A DNA stretch of 64,000 bases from Bacillus sp. AFS055030 (GTDB taxonomy: Bacteria > Bacillota > Bacilli > Bacillales > Bacillaceae_G), in the NCBI RefSeq assembly GCF_002574545.1, contig NZ_NUGT01000079.1:64442-128441 (forward strand), given 5' to 3'. The translations under genes were made by a program, and so were the position numbers. Below are positions 14,200 to 36,527 of this stretch, piece after piece. The notes below the pieces were generated by a model, which made no database searches, was not told the DNA's origin, and was given only the letters and a program-made list of their open reading frames with translations. Positions within the stretch are counted from its first letter, which is position 1; every line of letters begins with the position of its first letter.

Positions 14200-14802
14200 T
14201 TAAATTAATCCAATTAAAAGATAAATAGCAGTTCCCCAAATAAACAAGGCGGAGCATTTGTTGAATATGTTCATTAAGCCTCCTGTATTGTCTACCTTCT
14301 TCATGACTGAGCCTGCGAATGTTAATCCAAAAAACCAAATCCAAGATACTATAATACATGCGATCGTAAAGTAAACTTGTTCCCATCCGACATATTTTAA
14401 TGCACTTGTTCCAATTACTCCGACAGTATCTAAGATTGCATGGGGATTTAATAAGGAAACTGATAATGCAAAAATGATTTGTTGCCTACTAGGTAATGCA
14501 CTGTTCGATTCAATTGCTGCTGGTTTAGACATCCAAATAACATACCCCATGTAAACTAAAAACAAAATACCAGCAATCATCAGACTAATTTTTAGCCATT
14601 CAAATTGTAGTACGATTGTGGAAAGTCCAAAAACAGCTAAAAGAATTAAAAAAGTATCACAGATCGAAGCAGTAAGAGTCGCAGGAAGCGCTCGAATTAG
14701 TTTGGGCTGTGTGGCACCTTGTGAAAATACAAATACATTTTGTACCCCTAAAGGTAAAATAAGTCCGAATGCTAGGACTAGACCATGAATAATGGCTTCC
14801 AT
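14200..14802 (-). CDS. yisU: LysE/ArgO-family amino acid exporter (YisU-like)
   Basis: This 200-residue protein has five to six membrane helices and the LysE-family opening, with GLILPLGVQNVFVFSQG near residues 13-29, and the later NPHAILDTVGVIG segment, where the family has its conserved Asn-Pro pair. Such proteins export basic or other amino acids. The minus-strand RBS is AAAGGGAG. It is divergently transcribed from a MocR-type regulator, the same arrangement as yisU-yisV in B. subtilis, so control by that regulator is likely. The symbol rests on this combination, not on an alignment. Confidence 0.85.
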   Translation of the reverse strand: MEAIIHGLVLAFGLILPLGVQNVFVFSQGATQPKLIRALPATLTASICDTFLILLAVFGLSTIVLQFEWLKISLMIAGILFLVYMGYVIWMSKPAAIESNSALPSRQQIIFALSVSLLNPHAILDTVGVIGTSALKYVGWEQVYFTIACIIVSWIWFFGLTFAGSVMKKVDNTGGLMNIFNKCSALFIWGTAIYLLIGLI

Positions 14803-14859
14803 CTAATCAACTCCCTTTCAATTACTATCTTACTATGATAAAACTAAAAGAAAACAACC

Positions 14860-14887
14860 AATTGGATGGTTTTATATCCACCCAATT
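14860..14887. promoter_or_regulatory. Inverted repeat in the LysE/MocR divergent region
   Basis: AATTGGATGG (14860-14869) and CCACCCAATT (14878-14887) form a 10-bp inverted repeat with one mismatch and an 8-base spacer. It lies 14 bases before the regulator start and 58 before the exporter start, a sensible place for a MocR operator. Confidence 0.5.
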
Positions 14888-14900
14888 TAGGGGGAGTTAG

Positions 14901-16322
14901 ATGAAATGGAAACTAAATCGTGATTCTCATTTGACACTTCAAGACCAAATTGTAGATTGGATAAAATCTCGTATTGAACGAGGTGATTGGTCTGTTGGCA
15001 CAAAGATTCCATCACAGCGGCATCTAGCATCGCAATTTGATGTGAACCGCAGTACTGTACAACTTGCACTTGATGAATTAAGGGCAGATGGTTTGATCGA
15101 ATCAAAAATGGGTTCAGGGGTATTTGTAGCAAATAATTCTTGGAATGTATTATTGAAAAAATATCAACCAAATTGGCACAGACATATTGAATCAAGTATT
15201 CATAAACCAAACTTCCATACGATTCAACTCATAAATGAATATGAGCAGATGGATCATATCATACGGCTTGGTACAGGTGAATTATCACCAGATTTACTAC
15301 CAACTAAACAAATAGAAGATTCGTTAAGAAAGATTTCACTTGATTCCAAAGCAATTGGCTATTCATCTCCGCAAGGGAGTGAAAAGCTCCGAAAAATTTT
15401 ATGTAATTATTTAAAAAAACGTGGTATTGAATCAACACCAGAGAACATTTTAATTGTTTCGGGTGCACTTCAAGCACTTCAATTGATTGCTGTTGGATTA
15501 TTAGAAGAGGGATCCATTTTATTCCATGAACCCTTTTCGTATTTAAATTCAGTACATCCCTTTCAATCTAATGGAATGCAAATGATTTCAATTTCAAGGG
15601 AATGTCAATTAAAAGATAATTTACGGGCGCATAAAGGAAGGAGGCAATCTTTATTCTACTGCGTTCCAACACTTAACAATCCAACAGGTTATAATTGGTC
15701 ATTGGAAGAAAAGCAATATCTTTTTAATACATGCAAGGAGCTACAAATTCCGATTATTGAAGATGATGTGTATCATGAATTGCTTTTTGAATCAACTCTA
15801 CCAGCTATAAAATCGTTTGATAAATCAGGACAAGTTCTTTATATAGGGAGTGTTTCAAAAACACTTAGTCCAGGATTAAGAATTGGTTGGGTTGTTGCAC
15901 CTTCACCTGTAATTGAACGATTAGCTGATATAAAAATGCAAACAGATTATGGTTCAAGTGCCTTTTCACAAGAAATCGTATCTCACTGGATCTCAAGCGG
16001 TCTATACGAAAAGCATCTTATAAACCTCCGAGAACAATTACAAAGAAGAGCACTATTCGTAGAAGAAATTTTAGAAAAGAAATACACAAAAATAGCTTCA
16101 TGGAAAAAGTCTGAAGGTGGTTTCTACATATGGCTCAAGTTTCATAAACCGATTGTAAATAAGTCTTTCTTTTTAAAATTACTTAAAGAAAATATATTGA
16201 TTAATCCAGGGTATATTTACGAACCAAGAGATTTATACCATATTCGTCTTTCGTATGCCTATGCATCATTGGAAGAGTTAAAAAAGGGGTTAACTATTTT
16301 ACTACAAATAAGTCAACTGTAA
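14901..16322 (+). CDS. yisV: MocR-type GntR/aminotransferase transcriptional regulator (YisV-like)
   Basis: This 473-residue protein joins an N-terminal GntR winged helix-turn-helix (residues about 10-75, with TKIPSQRHLASQFDVNRSTV) to an aspartate aminotransferase fold type I domain. The PLP-binding lysine is the one in SVSKTLSPGLRIGW; YCVPTLNNPTGYNW and PIIEDDVYHELLF are the typical cofactor-site segments. Proteins of this type use PLP as a sensor and control a neighbouring gene. Here the neighbour is the divergent LysE-type exporter, with an inverted repeat between them. GGGGGAG lies just upstream of the ATG. Length is normal. Confidence 0.92.
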   Translation: MKWKLNRDSHLTLQDQIVDWIKSRIERGDWSVGTKIPSQRHLASQFDVNRSTVQLALDELRADGLIESKMGSGVFVANNSWNVLLKKYQPNWHRHIESSIHKPNFHTIQLINEYEQMDHIIRLGTGELSPDLLPTKQIEDSLRKISLDSKAIGYSSPQGSEKLRKILCNYLKKRGIESTPENILIVSGALQALQLIAVGLLEEGSILFHEPFSYLNSVHPFQSNGMQMISISRECQLKDNLRAHKGRRQSLFYCVPTLNNPTGYNWSLEEKQYLFNTCKELQIPIIEDDVYHELLFESTLPAIKSFDKSGQVLYIGSVSKTLSPGLRIGWVVAPSPVIERLADIKMQTDYGSSAFSQEIVSHWISSGLYEKHLINLREQLQRRALFVEEILEKKYTKIASWKKSEGGFYIWLKFHKPIVNKSFFLKLLKENILINPGYIYEPRDLYHIRLSYAYASLEELKKGLTILLQISQL

Positions 16323-26493: not shown

Positions 26494-26515
26494 ACATACC
26501 GACTGGTTAGTATGT
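26494..26515. promoter_or_regulatory. TetR-type operator, copy 1
   Basis: ACATACCGACTG and GTTAGTATGT meet as an inverted repeat; arms ACATACCGAC and the complement of GTTAGTATGT agree at 8 of 10 positions. The same sequence recurs at 30102-30122, beside the TetR gene. It lies just after the promoter, a blocking position. Confidence 0.72.
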
Positions 26516-26573
26516 AGTTTTGAGCTATAATAGGGGGCTTTTGAAATTTATACTAATTTTAGGAGGAAATAAA

Positions 26574-27347
26574 ATGCACGTTAAAGAGTTATTTGATTTA
26601 ACCGGGAAAGTAGCAATTATAACTGGTGGTGGACGAGGTCTTGGTGAACAAATTGCGAAAGGATTTGCTGAAGCGGGAGCAAATGTTGTACTTTGTTCTC
26701 GAAATGTAGAAGCATGCCAGGAAATCAGTGAAGAATTGAAAAATCTAGGTGTAGAATCTTTCGCGTTGAAGTGTGATGTTACAAACAAAGAGGATGTGCA
26801 AAGAGTAGTTAATGAAACAAAAGAGAAATTTGGCCGAATTGATATATTAGTAAACAATAGTGGTGCTTCTTGGGGAGCACCAGCTGAAGAGATGCCATTA
26901 GAGGCATGGAATAAAGTAATGAATGTGAATGTAACTGGTACGTTTTTAATGTCTCAAGCAGTAGGGAAAATCATGTTAGCACAAAAATCCGGAAAAATCA
27001 TCAATATTGCATCAATTGCTGGTTTAGTAGGGACGAATCCAAACGTAATGAATGCAGTTGGTTATAGTGCAAGTAAAGGTGCAGTGATCAGTTTTACAAA
27101 AGATTTAGCTGCGAAATGGGGTCCGAGTGGTATTTATGTTAATGCATTAGCTCCTGGATTTTTTCCGACAAAAATGTCTAAAGATGTTATTTCCCACGGA
27201 ACGGATCAAATAATAGAATCGATACCGCTTAAGAAATTTGGAAATGAAAACGAGTTAAAAGGTGCGGCATTATTTTTAGCAGCGCCGGCTTCAAATTATG
27301 TGACTGGGTCTGTTCTAGTTGTCGATGGTGGAACATCAATCGTTTAA
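26574..27347 (+). CDS. SDR-family oxidoreductase (first gene of the catabolic cluster)
   Basis: The frame opens at 26520, but ATG 26574 has AGGAGG at 7 bases spacing and is chosen (257 residues). It is a classical short-chain dehydrogenase: the NAD(P)-binding TGGGRGLGEQ near residue 18, NNSG near 94, catalytic Ser in NIASIAG, and the YSASKG pair Tyr/Lys near 164-168. It should oxidise or reduce a hydroxyl/keto group. In the cluster it may interconvert a keto-acyl and hydroxy-acyl intermediate, like LvaD in the levulinate pathway of Pseudomonas; that is inference. It is followed by the ComB-family gene after 19 bases. Confidence 0.9.
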   Translation: MHVKELFDLTGKVAIITGGGRGLGEQIAKGFAEAGANVVLCSRNVEACQEISEELKNLGVESFALKCDVTNKEDVQRVVNETKEKFGRIDILVNNSGASWGAPAEEMPLEAWNKVMNVNVTGTFLMSQAVGKIMLAQKSGKIINIASIAGLVGTNPNVMNAVGYSASKGAVISFTKDLAAKWGPSGIYVNALAPGFFPTKMSKDVISHGTDQIIESIPLKKFGNENELKGAALFLAAPASNYVTGSVLVVDGGTSIV

Positions 27348-27366
27348 TCAAAAAGGAGTTTTGTAA

Positions 27367-28116
27367 ATGGGTAAACTTCATCTTTTGATGAAAAAAGAAG
27401 AAATAGATGTTCAAAAATTAAACGATGAAAAAATAGTAGTCGTTTTTGATGTATTACTTGCTACTTCAACAATTACAGCTGCATTAGCGTTTGGCGCTAA
27501 AGAGGTCATACCTGTTATGAATAGACAAGAGGCAGTTCTTTTCACAAATAAAAATTTTGATAAAGAATATTTATTAATAGGGGAATATGAAGGAAATACA
27601 ATTGAAGGTTTTCGATCTCCTAATCCATTAACTTTAAAGAAAGTTGTTTCAAATCAGTCAATCGTCTTATCAACAACGAATGGAACAGTAGCGTTAAAAA
27701 ATTCTCAAAATGCAAAGAGAGTATACGCCGCATCAATTTTAAATGCATGCGCAGTTGCAAATCACTTAAGACAAAACTACAAAGAAGAGTCTGTTATTTT
27801 AGTCTGTTCAGGGTCGTCAGGACATTTTAATATGGAAGACTTTTATGGTGCAGGTTATTTTATTGAGTGCTTAGTAAATGAATCATGTCTTTTCGATTTA
27901 TCTGAAGCAGCTAAATCTGCACATTATTTTTACTTAGGATTGAAAGAAAAATGTAATGAGATTTTAGCGGAATCGAATGTTGGTAAAATGTTAATCCGTT
28001 ATGGATTTGAAGAGGAATTAAAATTTGTTTGTAGTAAAAGTATGTTTAATGTTGTACCAATATTTGTAGATGGTAAAAGCGTAGTGAATGTCAATCTTTC
28101 AAAGGAAACTATTTAA
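27367..28116 (+). CDS. ComB/2-phosphosulfolactate phosphatase family protein
   Basis: This 249-residue protein fits the ComB fold: VVVFDVLLATSTITAALAFG near residues 24-43 (metal-site aspartate and threonine), GEYEGNTIEGFRSPNP near 77-92, STTNGT near 107, and CSGSSGHFNMEDFYGAG near 145-161. The family hydrolyses 2-phosphosulfolactate in coenzyme M synthesis of methanogens, but homologues in other bacteria lack that pathway and have unknown substrates. Here it sits inside an acyl-CoA cluster that also has a kinase making a phospho-intermediate, so a role on a phosphorylated acid is conceivable. AAGGAG precedes the ATG. Confidence 0.85.
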   Translation: MGKLHLLMKKEEIDVQKLNDEKIVVVFDVLLATSTITAALAFGAKEVIPVMNRQEAVLFTNKNFDKEYLLIGEYEGNTIEGFRSPNPLTLKKVVSNQSIVLSTTNGTVALKNSQNAKRVYAASILNACAVANHLRQNYKEESVILVCSGSSGHFNMEDFYGAGYFIECLVNESCLFDLSEAAKSAHYFYLGLKEKCNEILAESNVGKMLIRYGFEEELKFVCSKSMFNVVPIFVDGKSVVNVNLSKETI

Positions 28117-28179
28117 ATAGTGTACTATTAAACTCTTAAACTTGATTGATAAAAAACAGGGTGTGAAAGGGATGATTGA

Positions 28180-29418
28180 ATGGATTTTTTCTATTCGCAA
28201 AAAAGTAAAGAGCTTCAATTAAAATTAACGAAATTTATGGAAAACTATATTTATCCTAATGAACGGATATACGAGCAACAGTTAAATGCACAAGAAACTA
28301 GGTGGTGTAATATACCTCCGATTATGGAAGAATTAAAACAAAAAGCAAAACAAGCGGGTTTATGGAATTTATTTTTATCTGAAAGTGACTTAGGAGCAGG
28401 GTTAACGAATTTAGAATATGCTCCATTATGCGAAATTATGGGACGATCTTTGATTGGACCAGAAGTGTTTAATTGTAGTGCACCAGATACAGGGAATATG
28501 GAAGTTTTAGAGAGATATGGTACGAAAGAGCAAAAAGAAAAATGGTTAGAACCACTTTTAAATGGTGAAATTCGTTCTTGCTTTTCAATGACCGAACCTG
28601 AGGTCGCTTCTTCTGATGCGACAAATATTGAAGCGAGTATCAAAAAAGATGGTGATTATTATATTATTAATGGTCGAAAATGGTGGTCATCAGGAGCCGG
28701 TGATCCTAGATGCAAAATTGCAATATTTATGGGCAAAACGAATCCGGACGCACCTAAATATGAACAGCAATCTATGATTCTAGTCCCTTTAAATACACCT
28801 GGTGTAAAAATCGAGCGGGTATTACCTGTTTTCGGTTATGATCATGCACCGCATGGACATGCAGAAATTACATTTACAAATGTAAAAGTTCCTGCAAGCA
28901 ATATTTTATGGGGAGAAGGAAAAGGGTTTGCGATTGCACAAGGTAGACTAGGTCCAGGTCGCATCCACCATTGTATGAGATTGATCGGTGCTGCCGAACG
29001 GGCACTCGAAGAAATGTGTAAGCGTGTTCAAACGCGAGAAACATTTGGTAAGCCGATTGCAAATCAAGGCGTAGTTCAAGATTGGATTGCTAATTCAAGA
29101 ATCGAAATTGAGCAAGCTAGATTACTAACCTTAAAAGCTGCATATATGATGGATACTGTTGGTAATAAAGAAGCGAAAGCAGAAATTGCAATGATAAAAG
29201 TCGTCGCGCCATCAATGGCTTTAAGAGTAATTGATCGAGCTATTCAAGCCTTTGGTGCTGCTGGTGTTTCTGATGATTATACATTAGCTGCTCAATGGGC
29301 AAATGCCAGAACGCTAAGATTAGCTGATGGTCCTGATGAAGTACATCGAGCACAATTAGCCAGATTAGAATTAAAAAAACATGCTGTAGAAAAAAACTTC
29401 TCATCAATAAAAAGTTAA
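28180..29418 (+). CDS. ACAD10/ACAD11-type acyl-CoA dehydrogenase
   Basis: This 412-residue flavoprotein has the three-domain acyl-CoA dehydrogenase fold. Its sequence follows the dehydrogenase part of human ACAD11 very closely as I recall that protein: [14 protein letters not shown] near residue 145, [11 protein letters not shown] near 166-176, [16 protein letters not shown] near 200-215, and [14 protein letters not shown] near 255-268. The position that usually holds the catalytic glutamate (YEGT in ordinary enzymes) reads ADGPDEVH at 382-389, i.e. Asp383. In ACAD10/11 and bacterial LvaC the enzyme removes phosphate from a 4-phosphoacyl-CoA to give an enoyl-CoA. The matching kinase is encoded 1.2 kb downstream. 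FAD is the expected cofactor. Confidence 0.92.
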
Positions 29419-29468
29419 TTTAAATGAAATGATAGATTGAGGTTATGATCAAAACATCCCTTGTATCA

Positions 29469-29477
29469 TGATATAAT
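29469..29477 (+). promoter_or_regulatory. Extended -10 promoter of the TetR gene
   Basis: TGATATAAT is a perfect extended -10 element, 34 bases before the TetR ATG. No good -35 is visible, as is usual for this class. It suggests the regulator has its own transcript. Confidence 0.6.
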
Positions 29478-29510
29478 TCTACTTAATTTTTAAGATTGCG
29501 AGGATTTCTT

Positions 29511-30080
29511 ATGAAACAAAAAATAAAAGCACATTCTATACAGCTATTTGATAAAAAAGGATTTACGAGTACATCCATTCAAGATATCGTCGAATCAATC
29601 GGTGTTACAAAAGGGACTTTTTATTATTATTATACAAGCAAAGAACAGCTTCTTATGGAAATTCACCTTCAATTTATTGAGGAATTATTAAATGAACAGG
29701 AAGAAGTTATTAATGATTCAAGGAAAAGCTTTTCAGATAAGCTATTTGAAGTGATTTATTTAAGCTTAATGGACATCAAAAAGCAAGGTCCAAGCGCCAA
29801 AGTATTTTATCGTGAAATGAGACATTTAAGTCCTGAAAGCTTAACAGAAATTAAGGCAAAAAGAGATGTATACAGATTTAATATTGAGAAACTTCTTTAT
29901 GAAGGAATTAAAAATGGTGATGTAAGATCAGATTTAGACGTACCAATTGTTTCATTCGGTATTTTAGGTGTTATGAACTGGAGCTATGAATGGTATAACG
30001 CTGAAGGGGAAAAAAATGCACTTGAAATAACGAAGTCATTCCAAGAAATGATCTTAAAAGGGATTAAAGTAGAGGAGTAA
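29511..30080 (+). CDS. TetR-family transcriptional regulator
   Basis: The frame opens at TTG 29496; ATG 29511 with GCGAGGA upstream is preferred (189 residues). The N-terminal helix-turn-helix is clear: AHSIQLFDKKGFTSTSIQDI and then GVTKGTFYYYYTSKEQLL, the signature end of the TetR DNA-binding domain. The C-terminal ligand domain is of the type found in acyl-CoA-sensing regulators. It lies between two acyl-CoA gene blocks, and a shared operator sits before each block, so it is most likely their repressor, released by a CoA thioester. The regulator gene itself does not carry the operator in front. Confidence 0.9.
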   Translation: MKQKIKAHSIQLFDKKGFTSTSIQDIVESIGVTKGTFYYYYTSKEQLLMEIHLQFIEELLNEQEEVINDSRKSFSDKLFEVIYLSLMDIKKQGPSAKVFYREMRHLSPESLTEIKAKRDVYRFNIEKLLYEGIKNGDVRSDLDVPIVSFGILGVMNWSYEWYNAEGEKNALEITKSFQEMILKGIKVEE

Positions 30081-30101
30081 TTATTTGTCTCCTTTTCCTT
30101 T

Positions 30102-30122
30102 ACATACCGACTAGTTAGTATT
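30102..30122. promoter_or_regulatory. TetR-type operator, copy 2
   Basis: ACATACCGACTAGTTAGTAT matches copy 1 (26494) at 19 of 20 positions. It lies 38 bases before the thioesterase gene and overlaps TAGTAT (30116-30121), a possible -10 element with only a weak -35. Confidence 0.72.
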
Positions 30123-30159
30123 GAAAAATACAAAATAATCGATAAAGGTAGGTTGATTT

Positions 30160-30561
30160 ATGAAAAAATTCACCGTTACACCTAGATTTTGTGAAACCGA
30201 TGCATTAGGACATATAAACAATACTAGTTACTTTATCTATTTAGAAGAAGCGCGAATTAAATTCTTCCAATCTCTTGGTTATTCAATGAATTTAGATGAT
30301 TGGAAGTTTATTCTAGCATCTACAAAATGCGATTTTGTGAATCAAGGTCACTTTAATCAAAAAATGACAGTCTCTACTTATATTTCAAAAATTGGAAATA
30401 AAAGCTTTCATCTCGAACATGAAATTTGTTGTGAAGAGACAAATCAATTAATCGCAACCGGTAATGCGATCATCGTATTTTTTAATTTCAAAGAGCAGCG
30501 TAGTGAAGTACTTCCTGAGTTATTTAGAGAGCAGTTAGAAAGACATTTAGTTGTAAAATAA
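30160..30561 (+). CDS. Acyl-CoA thioesterase (4HBT hot-dog family)
   Basis: This 133-residue protein is a single hot-dog domain with the active-site segment ETDALGHINNTSYFIYLEEA near residues 10-29, including the catalytic aspartate and the GHxNN pattern of YbgC/FadM-type thioesterases. It should hydrolyse an acyl-CoA, perhaps to recover CoA from dead-end intermediates. It is the first gene of the second block of the cluster, just after operator copy 2. GGTAGG lies upstream of the ATG. Confidence 0.88.
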   Translation: MKKFTVTPRFCETDALGHINNTSYFIYLEEARIKFFQSLGYSMNLDDWKFILASTKCDFVNQGHFNQKMTVSTYISKIGNKSFHLEHEICCEETNQLIATGNAIIVFFNFKEQRSEVLPELFREQLERHLVVK

Positions 30562-30592
30562 ACTGAATTTTCTAATAGGAAGAAGGGCTAAT

Positions 30593-31660
30593 ATGGCTGA
30601 AAAATTAGAATTAGAAACGATACAAGTTCGTAAAGGTGAAGAGTTAAATCTTCAAGTTTTACATAGATTTTTAGCAAAAAACATTGAAGGTCTTCCAGAT
30701 GGAGAATTAGAAATCCGCCAGTTCTCAGCTGGTCATTCAAACTTAACCTATTTACTAAAAATTGGTGAATGGGAAGTTGTGTTAAGAAGGCCGCCACTCG
30801 GTCCAGTTGCTCCAAAAGCACACGATATGAAAAGAGAATTTCGTATTTTATCAGAAATTCATCCTCACTTTTCGGCTGCACCTAAACCAATTTTATATTC
30901 AGAAAATGAACTAATTGTAGGTAGTCCATTTTTCATCATGGAAAGAAAAAATGGTGAAGTATTTGATTCTTCATTTCCTCCATATTTAAATGTAACAATT
31001 GAAGATTGTAAAAGATTATCTACTGTAATGGTAACTAAGCTGGTAGAATTACACTCCATTGATTATACAAAAACAAAACTCCTAGAAATAACGAAACCTG
31101 AAAATTTTATGGAAAGACAAGTAAACGGTTGGATTGGACGGTATAACAGGGCAAAGACTAGTGAAATTGCCGAGGTTGATCAGCTAATGCGTTGGTTAAT
31201 CAATCATGTTCCAATAAATCATCAGTCATCAATCATACATTATGATTTTAAATTGAATAATTCGATGTTTAGTCTCGATTTAAAAGAAATGATTGGACTA
31301 TTTGATTGGGAAATGGCAACAATTGGTGATCCATTAGCTGATTTAGGTGTAGCTTTATGCTATTGGATTCAAAATGATGATCCTGATTTATTAAAATTTG
31401 GCTTAGGTAAGCCACCTGTTACGATTCAAGAAGGATTTATGACAAGAAATCAATTTATTGAGGCATATGCAAAGAAAAGTGGGAGAGATTTATCAAACAT
31501 TCATTACTATATGGCTTTCGCCTATTTTAAATTAGCGGTAATCGTTCAACAAATCTTCTATCGATTTAAAGCTGGACAAACAAATGATCAGCGTTTTGCA
31601 AAGTTTGACCAATTTGCTGAAAATCTGATTAGAATTGCCAATCATGTAGCAGTTAAATAG
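30593..31660 (+). CDS. ACAD10/11-type phosphotransferase (APH-fold kinase, LvaA-like)
   Basis: This 355-residue protein has the aminoglycoside-phosphotransferase fold (COG3173 type). FSAGHSNLTYLLK near residue 44 and VVLRRPPLGPVAPKAHDMKR near 62-81 are the glycine-rich loop and the lysine-bearing strand region. The catalytic loop reads HYDFKLNNSMF (about 221-231) and the metal-binding loop is FDWEMATIGDPLADLG (about 240-255). The kinase half of ACAD10/11 has the same pattern but HGDFRLDN, so Gly is replaced by Tyr here; the catalytic aspartate and the asparagine remain. In the family the substrate is a hydroxyacyl-CoA. As a separate protein in one cluster with the ACAD11-type dehydrogenase, it mirrors bacterial LvaA/LvaC. 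Confidence 0.9.
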   Translation: MAEKLELETIQVRKGEELNLQVLHRFLAKNIEGLPDGELEIRQFSAGHSNLTYLLKIGEWEVVLRRPPLGPVAPKAHDMKREFRILSEIHPHFSAAPKPILYSENELIVGSPFFIMERKNGEVFDSSFPPYLNVTIEDCKRLSTVMVTKLVELHSIDYTKTKLLEITKPENFMERQVNGWIGRYNRAKTSEIAEVDQLMRWLINHVPINHQSSIIHYDFKLNNSMFSLDLKEMIGLFDWEMATIGDPLADLGVALCYWIQNDDPDLLKFGLGKPPVTIQEGFMTRNQFIEAYAKKSGRDLSNIHYYMAFAYFKLAVIVQQIFYRFKAGQTNDQRFAKFDQFAENLIRIANHVAVK

Positions 31661-31714
31661 ATTCATATGAAAGAGATTTTTATACGTAAATAAAAAACTG
31701 AAAGGAAGTTAATA

Positions 31715-32695
31715 ATGCAATCAATTCAATTTAAGCAATTTGGTGGTCCTGAAGTATTAGAAGAGGTAGAACTCGAAAGACCAGTACCTAAGGGGAATGA
31801 AGTATTAATTGAAGTATATGCAGCAGGTGTCAATTATGCTGATACTGCACGAAGAGAAAATCAGTATATAGTCAAAACTACTTTACCATATATACCTGGT
31901 GCTGAAGTTGCTGGAGTTGTTGTGGGAATTGGAGATGAGGTTACTTCAGTTAAAATTGGTGATCGAGTTGTTTCAATGTTGGAATGTGGTGGTTACTCAC
32001 AGTTTGCATTGACGAATGAGCGGTCGATTATTCATTTACCAAACGAAATGGATTTTAAAATAGCTGCCGCACTACCTGTCCAAGGATTAAGCGCGTATCA
32101 TATTTTAAAAACGATGGGTATGTTAGAACCAGGTGAAACCGTTTTAGTTCATGCAGCAGCAGGTGGGCTTGGTACATTAGCGGTGCAATTAGCAAAGCTT
32201 TTTGGAGCCGGTAAAGTAATCGCTACAGCAAGTACAGGCAAAAAATTACAACTAGCAAAAGAGATGGGAGCCGATGTATTAATCAATTATACAGAAGTAG
32301 GCTGGGAACAAAAAGTACTAGAAGCTACAAATGGAAAAGGTGTAGATGTTGCCTTAGAGATGGCAGGTGGCGATGTTTTTTATAAAACGTTAGATTGTTT
32401 AGCTTATTTCGGAAGATTAGTTATTTATGGTGTAGCAAGTGGTGAGCAAAGTAAGTTTTACCCATCTTCATTAATGGCAAAAAATCAATCAGTAATTGGT
32501 TTTTTCTTACCGCCTCTTTTGAGAAAAAAGGCATTAATTAAACAAAGCTTAGAAGAGTTATTTACTTATTTAGCTGAAGGAAAATTAAAAATCACGATTG
32601 GCGAGGTATTTCCATTAAGTGAAGCTGCCAATGTCCATACGTTATTGCAATCAAGGAAAACTGTTGGAAAGGTGATTTTAGAGCCTAGAAAGTAA
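31715..32695 (+). CDS. MDR-family NAD(P)H:quinone oxidoreductase / enoyl reductase
   Basis: This 326-residue medium-chain reductase has no catalytic zinc ligands. It opens with the family pattern FKQFGGPEVLEEVELERPVP, has NYADTARRENQY near residue 46, and the NADPH-binding loop is VLVHAAAGGLGTLAVQLAK near residue 141-159. Homologues reduce quinones or 2-enoyl groups; the sequence does not choose between them. It is flanked at 54 and 51 bases by the kinase and the second dehydrogenase of the same cluster. AAAGGAAG lies upstream. Confidence 0.88.
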   Translation: MQSIQFKQFGGPEVLEEVELERPVPKGNEVLIEVYAAGVNYADTARRENQYIVKTTLPYIPGAEVAGVVVGIGDEVTSVKIGDRVVSMLECGGYSQFALTNERSIIHLPNEMDFKIAAALPVQGLSAYHILKTMGMLEPGETVLVHAAAGGLGTLAVQLAKLFGAGKVIATASTGKKLQLAKEMGADVLINYTEVGWEQKVLEATNGKGVDVALEMAGGDVFYKTLDCLAYFGRLVIYGVASGEQSKFYPSSLMAKNQSVIGFFLPPLLRKKALIKQSLEELFTYLAEGKLKITIGEVFPLSEAANVHTLLQSRKTVGKVILEPRK

Positions 32696-32746
32696 TGAAT
32701 TTTTGATATGATAAACGGTGATTCAGATGAAACGGGGGGAATTTAA

Positions 32747-33925
32747 ATGCATTTACGCCTGACTGACGAACAAAAAATGATTCAAAAAACAATTCGAAAA
32801 TTTGTTGAAAAAGAATTAATCCCTTTAGAAAATGAAGTACTTAGAAATGAGCGTGAAGGTAGACCAAGCTTAGATCCTAAAGTTGAAAAGGAACTTCAAT
32901 TAAAAGCAAAAAAAGCTGGTTTCTGGGGCATTAATACTCCTACTGAATATGGTGGTGCAGATTTAGGCCAAATGATGTTAGCAATTATTTATATGGAAAT
33001 TTCAAAAACATTCGTTCCTTTTAAATTTGGTGGTTACGCGGATAATATTTTATTTTATTGTAGCGAAGAACAGAAAAAGAAATACCTGATTCCTACAATA
33101 AATGGTGAGAAAAAATCATGCTTTGCGATGACGGAACCTAATGCGGGCTCTGATACTCAAAACATTAAAATGACCGCTGTAAAGGATGGGGATGAATGGG
33201 TATTAAATGGTGAGAAAACATTTATTACAGGCGGAAACGAAGCGGATTTTGTAATGGTCATTGCCATTACGGATAGAGAAAGACATCAAAAAACTGGTGG
33301 AAGAGAGGGTGTAACTTGTTTTATAGTCGACCGGGAAATGGGTTGGAAATCTGAATTTATCCATACGATGGGCGAATGGGGACCAGCTGGTTTAGTATTT
33401 GATAATGTCCGTGTGCCAAAAGAGAATATTTTAGGAGAATTAAATGGTGGCTATAATTTAGGACTTGAATGGATTGGATTTGCAAGATGGATTGTAGGGG
33501 CTACGGCAGTTGGAGCAGCTGAACGTTTATTACAAATGGCCATTGACTATTCAAAAGAAAGAGAAACATTTGGAAAACCAATTGCCCAACGACAAGCTAT
33601 ACAATGGCAAATAGCGGATTCTGCTGTTGAAATAGAAGCAGCCAAATGGCTCGTGTTAAATGCAGCATATACACTCGATCAAGGAGAGGACAATAGGCAT
33701 TTAGCATCAATGGCGAAATTATATGGTTCGAATATGGGAAATCGAGTTGTTGACCGCGTACTTCAAATTCATGGTGGAATCGGTTATACAAAAGAACTAC
33801 CAATTGAAAGATGGTACCGTGAAGCAAGATTGTGGAGAATTTACGATGGAACTGATGAAATCCAACGTTTAATCATCTCACGTAATTTACTAAAAGGGCA
33901 TGTAAAATTAGGTCAATACATTTAA
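32747..33925 (+). CDS. Acyl-CoA dehydrogenase (second in the cluster)
   Basis: This 392-residue FAD enzyme has the standard features: FAMTEPNAGSDTQNIKM near 123-139, KTFITGGNEADFV near 157, and [20 protein letters not shown] near 270-290. The position of the usual C-terminal glutamate reads YDGTDEIQR (about 370-378), so Asp replaces Glu there. A glutamate in GLEWIGFARW near 240 is placed like the alternative base of isovaleryl-CoA dehydrogenase and may serve instead. It differs clearly from the ACAD11-like paralogue upstream and is probably an ordinary acyl-CoA dehydrogenase for the resulting acyl chain. GGGGGGA lies upstream of the ATG. Confidence 0.9.
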   Translation: MHLRLTDEQKMIQKTIRKFVEKELIPLENEVLRNEREGRPSLDPKVEKELQLKAKKAGFWGINTPTEYGGADLGQMMLAIIYMEISKTFVPFKFGGYADNILFYCSEEQKKKYLIPTINGEKKSCFAMTEPNAGSDTQNIKMTAVKDGDEWVLNGEKTFITGGNEADFVMVIAITDRERHQKTGGREGVTCFIVDREMGWKSEFIHTMGEWGPAGLVFDNVRVPKENILGELNGGYNLGLEWIGFARWIVGATAVGAAERLLQMAIDYSKERETFGKPIAQRQAIQWQIADSAVEIEAAKWLVLNAAYTLDQGEDNRHLASMAKLYGSNMGNRVVDRVLQIHGGIGYTKELPIERWYREARLWRIYDGTDEIQRLIISRNLLKGHVKLGQYI

Positions 33926-33943
33926 AAGATGGGAGAGAAGAAT

Positions 33944-34702
33944 ATGTCAGGAAGATTTGAAGGTCGAGTAGCCTTTGTAACAGGCGGTAGTCGAGGAATC
34001 GGAAAAGGAATCGTAGAATTATTTGCAAAAGAAGGTGCAAAAGTAGCCATTATTGATGTGAATGAAGAAGCACTATCACAAACTGCTTCAGAATTTAAAG
34101 AGTATGAAATATATACTAGAGTTGCAAACGTTACTAATTCTAATGAAGTTGAAACTGCTATGAAAGAAGTACATGATACATTTGGTTCAATAGATATTGT
34201 TGTCAATAATGCAGGTGTTATTCGCGATAATTTATTATTTAAAATGACAGACTCAGATTGGGATACAGTTATGGATGTACACTTGAAAGGTTCATTTAAT
34301 GTCGTACGTGCTGCACAAGTTTATATGGTTAAACAAAAATATGGAAGAATCATTAATATTTCATCAACATCAGCACTTGGAAACCGTGGACAATCAAACT
34401 ATGCAACTGCTAAGGCTGGTTTACAAGGTTTAACGAAAACCCTTGCAATTGAACTAGGTAAATACGGAATCACATCTAACGCTGTGGCACCAGGGTTTAT
34501 CGAAACTGAAATGACAAAAGAAACAGCAAAACGAATTGGTATTACGTTTGAACAACTTGTTGAGGCAAGTTTAAGCCAAATCCCAGCCGGAAGAACAGGT
34601 AAACCAGAGGATATAGCAAATGCAGTGGCTTTCTTTGCAGATGAGAAGTCTTCCTATGTAAATGGGCAAGTTTTATATGTTGCTGGTGGACCTAAAGCAT
34701 AA
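33944..34702 (+). CDS. FabG-like SDR, probable 3-hydroxyacyl-CoA dehydrogenase
   Basis: A frame opens at ATG 33929, but GGGAGAG lies 6 bases before ATG 33944, which is preferred (252 residues). It is a classical SDR: TGGSRGIGKG near residues 13-22, NNAGV near 88, Ser in NISSTSALG near 140, and YATAKAG with Tyr/Lys near 153-157. It resembles FabG/PhaB. Followed at once by a MaoC-type hydratase pair, which makes (R)-3-hydroxyacyl-CoA, it fits as the enzyme that oxidises that product. The direction and stereochemistry are inferred. Confidence 0.9.
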   Translation: MSGRFEGRVAFVTGGSRGIGKGIVELFAKEGAKVAIIDVNEEALSQTASEFKEYEIYTRVANVTNSNEVETAMKEVHDTFGSIDIVVNNAGVIRDNLLFKMTDSDWDTVMDVHLKGSFNVVRAAQVYMVKQKYGRIINISSTSALGNRGQSNYATAKAGLQGLTKTLAIELGKYGITSNAVAPGFIETEMTKETAKRIGITFEQLVEASLSQIPAGRTGKPEDIANAVAFFADEKSSYVNGQVLYVAGGPKA

Positions 34703-34719
34703 AAAAAGAGGTGAATTCA

Positions 34720-35169
34720 ATGTTTAAATCGTTTATTGGAAAACGCTCTAAATCCGTAAAAAATACTGTAGAACGTGGTGCTGTGAAAAAATTTGCTGAA
34801 GCAATTGGAGATTTACATCCAATTTATGTTGATGAAGAATACGGAAAACAATCTAGATATGGACAAAATATTGCTCCGACTACTTTTCCAAGAGTATTTG
34901 ACTATGGGAAAATCGAAAATTTCAACTTACCGAATGTTGGATTAATTCATGGTGAGCAAACATTTGAATATAAAAGGCCATTTTTCGTAGGTGAAACCAT
35001 TAATTGTTACACAGAAATTAAGGACTATTATGAAAAACGTGGTGGACATGGCTTTATGGGATTTCTAGTACTGTCTGATAACGGTGAAGATCAAGCAGGT
35101 AATATAATATTTACTACTAAATCAGTTGTGATCATAACTGAAGAGGTTAGGAAGGTGCTAACGGTATGA
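34720..35169 (+). CDS. MaoC-type hydratase subunit (FAS1-like dehydratase domain)
   Basis: A GTG opens the frame at 34711, but ATG 34720 follows GAGGTG at 6 bases and is preferred (149 residues). The hot-dog domain has GAVKKFAEAIGDLHPIYVDE near residues 20-39 and GLIHGEQTFEYKRPFFVGE near 73-91, as in the N-terminal, non-catalytic-type half of two-part hydratases (HadA/HadC-like). The stop overlaps the next start by 4 bases (ATGA), so the two subunits are co-translated and probably form a heterodimer. Confidence 0.85.
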   Translation: MFKSFIGKRSKSVKNTVERGAVKKFAEAIGDLHPIYVDEEYGKQSRYGQNIAPTTFPRVFDYGKIENFNLPNVGLIHGEQTFEYKRPFFVGETINCYTEIKDYYEKRGGHGFMGFLVLSDNGEDQAGNIIFTTKSVVIITEEVRKVLTV

Positions 35170-35570
35170 CGGTAATATTAGATTTACAAGCTGGAGACTC
35201 GTTGAAACCAGTTGTTCTTGACCCAGTATCTCGGATTGATTTAATAAAATACGCAGGAGCATCAGGTGATTATAATCCAATTCATACCATTGATGAGGAA
35301 GCAAAGAAAGCTGGTTTACCTGGAATAATTGCACATGGCATGTGGACTATGGGGAATTTAGCAAAGCTTTTTTCAGATTATTTAGAAGGCGGATTTATTG
35401 AACATTACTCGATTAGATTTAAGAATATGGTATTTCTAAATGATGTCATTACATTAAATTCAACTCTTCATAAAATTGATGAAAACAATCTACATTTTAA
35501 AGTAAATGCAAAGAATCAAAACGATGTAACAGTGATAACTGGTAAAATTTTATTTAAATTATATGAATGA
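35166..35570 (+). CDS. MaoC-type enoyl-CoA hydratase, catalytic subunit
   Basis: This 134-residue hot-dog protein carries the hydratase-2 motif: SGDYNPIHTIDEEAKKAGLP near residues 35-54, with the catalytic Asp and His, then IIAHGMWTMG. Together with the preceding protein it should hydrate 2-enoyl-CoA to (R)-3-hydroxyacyl-CoA. The start overlaps the upstream stop as ATGA. It is the last gene of the cluster, followed by a hairpin terminator. Confidence 0.9.
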   Translation: MTVILDLQAGDSLKPVVLDPVSRIDLIKYAGASGDYNPIHTIDEEAKKAGLPGIIAHGMWTMGNLAKLFSDYLEGGFIEHYSIRFKNMVFLNDVITLNSTLHKIDENNLHFKVNAKNQNDVTVITGKILFKLYE

Positions 35571-35584
35571 GACTAAATCGAATT

Positions 35585-35609
35585 GGGACTTCTAAAAGGA
35601 GTCCCTTTT
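35585..35609 (+). terminator. Terminator of the catabolic cluster
   Basis: GGGACT (35585-35590) pairs with AGTCCC (35600-35605), followed by TTTTG. Confidence 0.75.
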
Positions 35610-35705: not shown

Positions 35706-36527
35706 ATGGATCTTTCATTTGATAAATTATTAGAGCAGTTTGATTTGAAAAAAAATGAACATCAAAAAAATATGCATAAGGTCAACAAAAGAATAGATGA
35801 AATAGAGTCCCATATGGAAGAAATTAAAAAGCAATTACATAGTTTTGACCATCAAATTGTTAATATAGAAAAAGAATTAAAAACTACACTATCAATGATT
35901 AAAAGTGAAAATGAAACAAGCTCACTTCAAAATAAAGATAATGGACATCACCATAAAAACGAGCATAAAGAACATCAAAAGCAAAACAGACATCAAAAGC
36001 AGCACATAGGTCATGAACACCAACAAGATCATCTTAATTGGGCTGAAAATTTAATCCATAATGTGGAGGAATTTTCAGCAAGTATATTCGAACCTAACCA
36101 TAAAGGTGATAAAGAGCATCATACGCACAAAGAGCATCAACATCAAGATGAACAGCAAGAACACGGTCATGTCGAGGAAAAACAGCATAACTCAAGAGTA
36201 GCTAATAGGAAAAAGTTTAATAATCAAACTTCAGATCTAAATCAGTATACTGCAAGTACATTGGACGAAAGTCAATCTAGCGGCATAGTAAATGAATTAA
36301 CTAGCATGAATCAAAAAAATTATTCAGAAATATCATCTGTTTTTTCAAATCATAAGGAAGAACAACATCAAAATTACAATCATACAAACGTCACTAATGA
36401 AAAGAAAACATCTGAACAATTATTAGAAACGGATTTTTCTGATTTATCAATAGATGACTGGGAGGACACTACTACTAACTTATCGATGTCTGAATGGTTT
36501 GAAATTGATCCTACTGATAAGAGATAA
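35706..36527 (+). CDS. Histidine-rich coiled-coil protein, unknown function
   Basis: I recognise no family. The 273-residue product has an N-terminal coiled coil (about 15-65, with regular hydrophobic positions in INKRIDEIESHMEEIKKQ-like sequence), then a long low-complexity part (about 78-165) very rich in His, Gln, Glu and Lys (GHHHKNEHKEHQKQNRH and similar), then a polar acidic C-terminus ending DLSIDDWEDTTTN. It has no signal peptide or membrane helix. The histidine clusters could bind zinc, nickel or copper; similar composition also occurs in spore coat proteins. GGTGAGG lies upstream of the ATG. It is a single gene with a strong terminator after it. Confidence 0.72.
   Translation: MDLSFDKLLEQFDLKKNEHQKNMHKVNKRIDEIESHMEEIKKQLHSFDHQIVNIEKELKTTLSMIKSENETSSLQNKDNGHHHKNEHKEHQKQNRHQKQHIGHEHQQDHLNWAENLIHNVEEFSASIFEPNHKGDKEHHTHKEHQHQDEQQEHGHVEEKQHNSRVANRKKFNNQTSDLNQYTASTLDESQSSGIVNELTSMNQKNYSEISSVFSNHKEEQHQNYNHTNVTNEKKTSEQLLETDFSDLSIDDWEDTTTNLSMSEWFEIDPTDKR

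Follow-up and report, generated by a model that had tools for sequence, protein, structure and literature searches.

An eleven-gene cluster in the genome of Bacillus sp. AFS055030 is probably an operon for the breakdown of a 4-hydroxy (or 4-oxo) carboxylic acid, controlled by a TetR regulator. It lies within a stretch of 64,000 nucleotides (the window), and at its core are an aminoglycoside phosphotransferase (APH)-fold kinase and an acyl-coenzyme A (CoA) dehydrogenase (dehydrogenase A), which very probably carry out a two-step chemistry of phosphorylation and elimination. Related systems have been published from Pseudomonas and Thermus; this one is a Bacillales version of a known kind, in which the new part is a ComB-like partner protein. 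Every activity and the substrate are predicted from what was observed, namely gene content, residues, trees, operator-like sites and conservation. The three genes that carry the argument are:

27367..28116, plus strand: ComB-like PF04029 protein (PF04029 209.9 bits), candidate phosphatase or kinase partner
28180..29418, plus strand: dehydrogenase A, ACAD11/LvaC-type acyl-CoA dehydrogenase by residues and tree, predicted to convert 4-phosphoacyl-CoA to enoyl-CoA
30593..31660, plus strand: APH-fold kinase, predicted 4-hydroxyacyl-CoA kinase by family match, mapped residues and trees

Results and Discussion

The dehydrogenase and the kinase

The closest solved proteins to dehydrogenase A are 4hr3 and human and mouse ACAD11 (expect value (E) 2e-146 to 4e-138), and the next dehydrogenase in the same search follows only at E 6e-42. 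With mouse ACAD11 it shares 56% identity over 395 residues, and its R256, R261, H264, R267 and D383 align to R626, R631, H634, R637 and D753 of the mouse enzyme. The R626/H634/R637 triad of ACAD11 has been modelled as binding the 4-phospho group, and changes of these three residues disrupt the dehydrogenase-domain step so that the phospho-intermediate piles up (PMC12440821). This RRHRD pentad is kept in 57/57 dehydrogenase A sequences tested from the Bacillales set, the window included, and among 32 more distantly related dehydrogenases from these loci 27 show V-R-L-A-E at the pentad positions. In a careful tree of 60 dehydrogenases, 45 including that of the window, mouse ACAD11 and 4hr3 form one clade (support 100/100) on a long branch; two Bacillales-set dehydrogenases (L103 and L113) are located outside despite the pentad, and likewise four more distant plasmid or genome dehydrogenases. 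By residues and tree, dehydrogenase A is of the ACAD11 type, as a sequence-only reading of this DNA had claimed before. The second dehydrogenase of the cluster (dehydrogenase B) also has an Asp at the catalytic base position (Asp367), showing that the Asp alone is not diagnostic of the ACAD11 type. It carries W242, V250 and T253 where the phosphate-binding R/H/R would be expected and lies outside the ACAD11 clade, which rules it out as a second ACAD11-type enzyme.

Several further dehydrogenases were seen along the way. Two plasmid-borne ones beside a kinase (L053 5788-6978 and L119 5781-6959) keep the triad (RLSPARLSHCMR) at an identity of just 30-34% to dehydrogenase A and represent a more divergent branch with perhaps the same chemistry, and a dehydrogenase-like stretch with two in-frame stops in the own genome (G000:C3:64157-65152) is perhaps a pseudogene. 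In two genera taken for Pseudomonas an ACAD11-type dehydrogenase is present in 144/149 and 25/25 genomes, mostly 63-70% identical to dehydrogenase A. No kinase was found within 1.5 kb of the dehydrogenase in seven loci read from the second of these genera, and the order lvaA-lvaB-lvaC was not found when both genera were searched with dehydrogenase A and seven loci and six regions were read. Kinase, an LvaB-sized DUF6285-like stretch and dehydrogenase do follow each other as in lvaA-lvaB-lvaC in L230 (1273-3708), from the genome of the Alcanivorax match L128.

Among solved proteins the kinase is closest to 9o56 (E 6e-149; titled just 'aminoglycoside phosphotransferase') and then to ACAD11. The sequence-only reading had the kinase follow ACAD11 as well, and at the level of residues this holds: all seven mapped positions of the ACAD11 kinase are kept (R81, E82, R175, H216, D218, N223 and D238), with R81, R175, D218 and N223 corresponding to the ACAD11 Arg beside the alpha-C Glu, R176, D220 and N225 (the R86 of the paper was paired with R81 by description and not by number). 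The same seven positions are as in ACAD11 in 64/65 kinase matches of the Bacillales set and in 92/92 others aligned. An aminoglycoside-resistance enzyme could be ruled out, as the best NCBIfam APH match has E 9e-5 and is far below the cut-off. Mammalian ACAD10 and ACAD11 resemble the window in having both halves and the mapped active-site residues, but in the window the halves are two free proteins; a separate bacterial protein has been reported to replace either half of ACAD10 (PMC11342911).

Distribution and neighbourhood

The kinase was found in 15/19 genomes of the family (E 1e-3; two of the matches are weak, 5e-4 and 7e-4), in 137/299 genomes and 56/116 genera of the order (E 1e-40), the own genome being counted in both cases, and in 6/299 genomes of a phylum-wide sample. 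By these counts the trait belongs to the order and is not an oddity of one genome. The order is called Bacillales here as the named Cytobacillus locus L049 sits inside the kinase group. Neighbourhoods were read about 9.4 kb to each side of the kinase in 63 loci: 60 mostly one per genus, the window, a second locus of the own genome (L003) and the Cytobacillus plasmid L049, with six of the 63 being the window and five species of its genus. Their genes were labelled by similarity to query proteins or by cluster membership, the clusters having been compared to Pfam through examples only.

Near the kinase these loci contain dehydrogenase A (57), a protein like the first short-chain dehydrogenase (SDR1) of the window (56), TetR (51), the ComB-like protein (46), a CoA ligase (40), a medium-chain dehydrogenase/reductase (MDR, 39), an enoyl-CoA hydratase (37), a thioesterase (35), a 3-hydroxyacyl-CoA dehydrogenase (32), the MaoC pair (14), a thiolase (14) and a branched-chain-type importer permease (13). 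The gene arrangement recurs in relatives, which together with the low substitution ratios of its genes (see below) speaks against chance. The distinct partner set of the sequence-only reading has to be widened for the group as a whole, since many other Bacillales loci add a 3-hydroxyacyl-CoA dehydrogenase, a thiolase or an ATP-binding cassette (ABC) importer. Dehydrogenase B, the second short-chain dehydrogenase (SDR2) and the MaoC pair also form a module of their own (for example in L071, L082, L095 and L108).

The own genome encodes a second pair of kinase and ACAD11-type dehydrogenase on another contig (48% and 67% identical). It is located at L003 2505-8823 on the minus strand (G000:C31), together with an SDR, an adenosine monophosphate (AMP) ligase and a family III CoA-transferase; transposase-type open reading frames (ORFs) lie nearby at 14315-15287, and a ComB-like gene was not found in the L003 stretch.

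The ComB-like partner

The ComB-like partner named by the sequence-only reading is real. Its gene lies within about 9.4 kb of the kinase in 46/63 loci (40/57 without the window and the five same-genus loci) and is directly next after the kinase in 37 of the 63, with gaps of -38 to 78 bp and ten overlapping, while we estimate that chance would give less than one locus at about two PF04029 genes per genome, as in the own genome. A search of 91 non-Bacillota kinase loci (same strand, up to 6 kb away, E 1e-8) did not find it, and it was also not found in 44 loci of a set that includes the best-match loci of what we call the Marinobacter type, meaning the order of the genome holding L173.

Of the 91 non-Bacillota loci, 17 have a histidine phosphatase gene no more than 6 kb from the kinase and on its strand. 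The Marinobacter-type relatives have one at a distance of up to 1.5 kb in 29 of 33 loci, which are best-match loci and not a random sample, and directly downstream in 24 of them, twelve times at exactly -1 bp; three examples pass the PF00300 cut-off. In none of the 63 Bacillales-set loci was it found. All these counts are lower bounds, coming from three query proteins at E 1e-8 (1e-5 in one search) and partly from short contigs. For Pseudomonas citronellolis a histidine phosphatase gene by the kinase has been described, lvaB was not found there, and it was suggested that the enzyme may remove phosphate (PMC6692424).

Like ComB (1vr0 and 2yyv), the ComB-like protein of the window belongs to the PF04029 family, and it matches 1vr0 at E 8e-35. 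D28, E73, T104-N105-G106-T107, E157 and D158 are kept in 45 or 46 of the 46 cluster ComB-like proteins. Unlike ComB, the cluster proteins are tied to kinase-dehydrogenase clusters, and five positions common to 1vr0 and 2yyv, the only two solved proteins compared, are kept in none of the 46, namely the Arg of LRATS (Leu31 in the window), Arg74, His205, Arg208 and Cys221 (window numbering). The window protein reaches at best 162.6 bits against a cut-off of 330 (TIGR00298: 117.7 against 175.05), and all 11 of the 46 that were run against NCBIfam stay below all eight ComB equivalog cut-offs. The lost positions and the failed cut-offs suggest a substrate that differs from that of ComB. No paper on a conserved ComB-like partner was found among the matches listed for literature on ComB, histidine phosphatase, 4-hydroxyacyl-CoA and Bacillus lva, and no abstract retrieved for ComB with acyl-CoA dehydrogenase had a bearing on it.

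Relation to published systems

The lva and P. citronellolis LA18T clusters share with the window a separate kinase, an ACAD11-type dehydrogenase and an SDR (PMC6692424). In contrast to the lva operon, the window has TetR and not the sigma-54-type regulator LvaR, lacks a ligase (LvaE), and encodes the ComB-like protein where lva has LvaB and P. citronellolis a histidine phosphatase; in ACAD10 a HAD domain takes this place (PMC11342911). The absence of an LvaB-like helper, already claimed by the sequence-only reading, was borne out, as gaps below 100 bp leave no room for one. The likeness to lva is one of gene content; the reference in our trees is ACAD11. Homologues of lvaABCD were reported in alpha-, beta- and gammaproteobacteria (PMC6692424), whereas the window comes from Bacillota. 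The predicted pathway is a Gram-positive one, as the sequence-only reading proposed; similar operons were already in print, both the P. citronellolis lva cluster (PMC6692424) and an operon of Thermus thermophilus HB8 (PMC7022988).

The latter, the TTHB023/PfmR operon, has been linked to fatty-acid degradation, with a phenylacetate assignment also being cited, and as published it ends at the kinase TTHB014 (PMC7022988). On pTT27 it contains TetR, a conventional dehydrogenase, a hydrolase, an SDR, MaoC, a thioesterase, a ligase, a further SDR, a dehydrogenase and the kinase, and behind the kinase we found on the same strand a gene for a DUF6285 protein as large as LvaB (116 residues), and one for a histidine phosphatase. 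The operon is like the window in having TetR, an RRHRD-type dehydrogenase, the APH kinase, two SDRs, MaoC, a thioesterase and a conventional dehydrogenase, and one SDR is 48% identical to SDR1. It differs in its ligase, DUF6285 and histidine phosphatase, with no ComB-like gene annotated there; its kinase and dehydrogenase are only 24% and 35% identical to those of the window, and one of the seven mapped kinase positions differs. From the pentad and the kinase residues we infer that the Thermus PfmR operon would also encode a 4-hydroxyacyl-CoA pathway.

Proposed pathway and alternative explanations

In the proposed pathway a CoA ligase encoded elsewhere in the genome would activate the acid and SDR1 would interconvert its 4-oxo and 4-hydroxy forms. 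The kinase would then phosphorylate the 4-hydroxyl group of the acyl-CoA and dehydrogenase A would eliminate the phosphate to give the 2-enoyl-CoA, which the MaoC pair could hydrate and SDR2 oxidise toward the 3-ketoacyl-CoA. A thiolase from elsewhere would finish the round and dehydrogenase B would serve the next one. The ComB-like protein would most likely dephosphorylate stalled 4-phospho-acyl intermediates, with the thioesterase freeing CoA, and the histidine phosphatase may play the same part in Proteobacteria. That the ComB-like protein is a phosphatase of this pathway is plausible, if just short of probable. Somewhat more tentative is the general idea that such cassettes need a third protein for the phosphorylated intermediate and that evolution has put unrelated folds into this slot. 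In Bacillales it would be occupied by a remodelled ComB-type protein, in Proteobacteria, Deinococcus and Thermus by a histidine phosphatase and in ACAD10 perhaps by the HAD domain. On this view the Bacillales proteins would form a new family of 4-phospho-hydroxyacyl(-CoA) phosphatases.

Several observations weigh against this picture. The kinase is only 32% identical to that of ACAD11, and in a careful tree of 64 kinases it groups with the Bacillales set, Deinococcus, Streptomyces and the Marinobacter-type group, whereas the ACAD11 kinase groups with most of the Pseudomonadota sequences used; the split between them has a support of 100/99 to 100/100 and was also recovered in a quick tree with 96 of the 122 collected kinases (87 and 98). 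The 64 kinases were picked by hand, kinase and dehydrogenase trees were rooted by choice, and the positions of long branches (L050, mouse ACAD11) are less certain. Strictly taken, the kinase thus falls outside the ACAD10/11 clade, which the sequence-only reading had regarded as speaking against itself, while dehydrogenase A falls inside. Moreover, the window cluster contains neither a CoA ligase nor a thiolase. As to the ComB-like protein, its phosphatase activity would not be assured given the five lost positions, and 17/63 loci have no such gene nearby. Among 15 of these genomes that were searched, six have a copy elsewhere and nine have none anywhere at E 1e-40 or better, so the protein is not essential. 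One ComB-like copy (G185) lies about 125 bp behind another kinase, judged by coordinates, and has an in-frame stop.

The ComB-like protein could instead be a non-catalytic partner of the kinase that takes the place of LvaB. There is precedent for this, as LvaB was pulled down with LvaA and both are required for growth on levulinate (Rand et al., via PMC6692424), and the HAD domain of ACAD10 lowers the kinase output despite negligible phosphatase activity (PMC11342911). The tight coupling to the kinase gene and the absence of the two Arg, His, Arg and Cys of 1vr0 and 2yyv from all cluster proteins would fit as well. However, the acidic and TNGT positions of PF04029 are conserved as expected of an active enzyme, the same slot holds a histidine phosphatase in Marinobacter-type relatives, and in Thermus a histidine phosphatase exists in addition to an LvaB-sized DUF6285 gene, so that we regard a non-catalytic partner as rather unlikely and keep the phosphatase as the working model.

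Another question is the substrate. If the kinase acted on another hydroxyl or acyl-CoA (3-, 5- or branched hydroxy, or a steroid or terpenoid side chain), the pathway would not be one for 4-hydroxy acids. The kinase clade differing from that of ACAD11 would allow this, as the substrate is not readable from sequence, and so would the assignment by others of PfmR-controlled Thermus genes to phenylacetate and fatty-acid metabolism (PMC7022988). We nevertheless consider it improbable, since dehydrogenase A is not separated from the ACAD11 type, the triad of which was modelled on a 4-phospho group (PMC12440821), and since no P-acyl-CoA was seen in cells from 5- or 6-hydroxyhexanoate (PMC11342911). 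A 4-hydroxy substrate class is likely, with levulinate, a lactone or a 4-hydroxy fatty acid as candidates.

The missing ligase could be traced in the relatives. In all five same-genus loci read, SDR and ligase frames are present between dehydrogenase A and TetR and an enoyl-CoA hydratase is present between kinase and MDR. Between kinase and MDR the window has 58 bp, compared to 823-844 bp in 12/12 relatives measured. In one of the five same-genus loci, L058 (5693-8118), which has the most similar kinase among the loci read (93% identical), the SDR is truncated and the ligase is split into two frames, as if the genes that the window no longer has were in decay there. With the L059 ligase as reference, same-genus ligases show 71-96% identity, whereas none of the eight ligase-like frames compared from the own genome exceeds 52%, which rules out a mere relocation; a first search of the own genome with the L084 ligase had given 57% over part and 46% over most of the query. 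The sequence-only reading is correct in that the window cluster contains no ligase or thiolase, but as judged from these comparisons, the ligase has been lost secondarily in this genome in particular. That the whole window cluster is a decaying remnant after the loss of ligase, one SDR and hydratase is very improbable, given that all eleven remaining genes are intact with a pairwise dN/dS of 0.03-0.20, that at least ten other AMP-ligase-like frames exist in the genome and that a P. putida lvaE deletion mutant still grows on levulinate (Rand et al., via PMC6692424).

Cluster layout and regulation

The cluster spans 26574-35570 on the plus strand with all intergenic gaps below 100 bp, and the ORFs listed in the sequence-only reading are present at the coordinates given there, with the families expected. 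Five pairwise comparisons, drawn from the window and three same-genus loci, give a ratio of nonsynonymous to synonymous substitutions (dN/dS) of 0.03-0.20 for all eleven genes; all of them thus appear to be maintained by selection. The remaining features are:

26494..26513: operator copy 1 (ACATACCGACTGGTTAGTAT), upstream of SDR1; similar sites occur upstream of cluster genes in relatives
26574..27347, plus strand: SDR1, gluconate-5-dehydrogenase-like short-chain dehydrogenase (NF006070 394.5 bits, cut-off 279), candidate for the 4-oxo/4-hydroxy step
29496..30080, plus strand: TetR-family regulator (PF17932/PF00440)
30102..30121: operator copy 2 (ACATACCGACTAGTTAGTAT), upstream of the thioesterase
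30160..30561, plus strand: 4HBT-fold thioesterase (PF13279)
31715..32695, plus strand: MDR, quinone-oxidoreductase/enoyl-reductase-like (TIGR02824 277.3 bits, under the cut-off of 296.8)
32747..33925, plus strand: dehydrogenase B, acyl-CoA dehydrogenase outside the ACAD11-type clade
33929..34702, plus strand: SDR2, FabG-like 3-hydroxyacyl dehydrogenase by family matches
34711..35169, plus strand: MaoC1, FAS1_DH-type partner subunit (PF13452)
35166..35570, plus strand: MaoC2, MaoC-type hydratase subunit (PF01575; HadB-like match under its cut-off)
35585..35605, plus strand: terminator-like hairpin 3' of the last gene (9-pair stem and T tail; consensus match only)

Both operator copies fit the pattern ACATACCGACT[G/A]GTTAGTAT, for which 0.04 occurrences are expected by chance at up to three mismatches; the pattern was drawn from the sites themselves, and the degenerate form was also written after seeing sites. 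This degenerate TACCGACC-type palindrome gave 70 matches in 44/63 loci with at most one mismatch, compared to 0.05 in shuffled sequence, and 63 of the 70 lie within 150 bp upstream of a cluster gene. It is present in 40/48 loci whose TetR gene is more than 40% identical. A weak point is the operator sequence of the window itself, which at up to four mismatches gives only 119 matches versus 63 in shuffled sequence, in 57 versus 40 loci. Copy 1 matches 11 of the 13 specified positions of the PfmR site TACCGACCGNTNGGTN by eye, while the window TetR is only 25% identical to Thermus PfmR. The two matching operators suggest a TetR regulon resembling the Thermus PfmR operon. The start chosen in the sequence-only reading, 26494, is the first base of copy 1. 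Straight after the cluster follows an ORF of 273 residues (35706-36527) that is rich in His, Gln and Lys by eye, and the same-genus loci have an ORF of 126-311 residues at this place.

Conclusion

Lipid peroxidation, lactones and levulinate are sources of 4-hydroxy acids, and papers of 2024 and 2025 describe the mammalian enzymes that make these acids accessible to beta-oxidation (PMC11342911, PMC12440821). With the kinase being present in 137/299 genomes of the order, often beside a fuller regulated pathway, this chemistry could now be studied in Gram-positive bacteria. For the ACAD10 HAD domain the question of how stalled phospho-acyl-CoA is handled has been posed without an answer (PMC11342911), and a conserved partner phosphatase, if true, would provide a general one. 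It would also give a function to proteins that are labelled as ComB family yet fail the ComB cut-offs, as all eleven tested here do.

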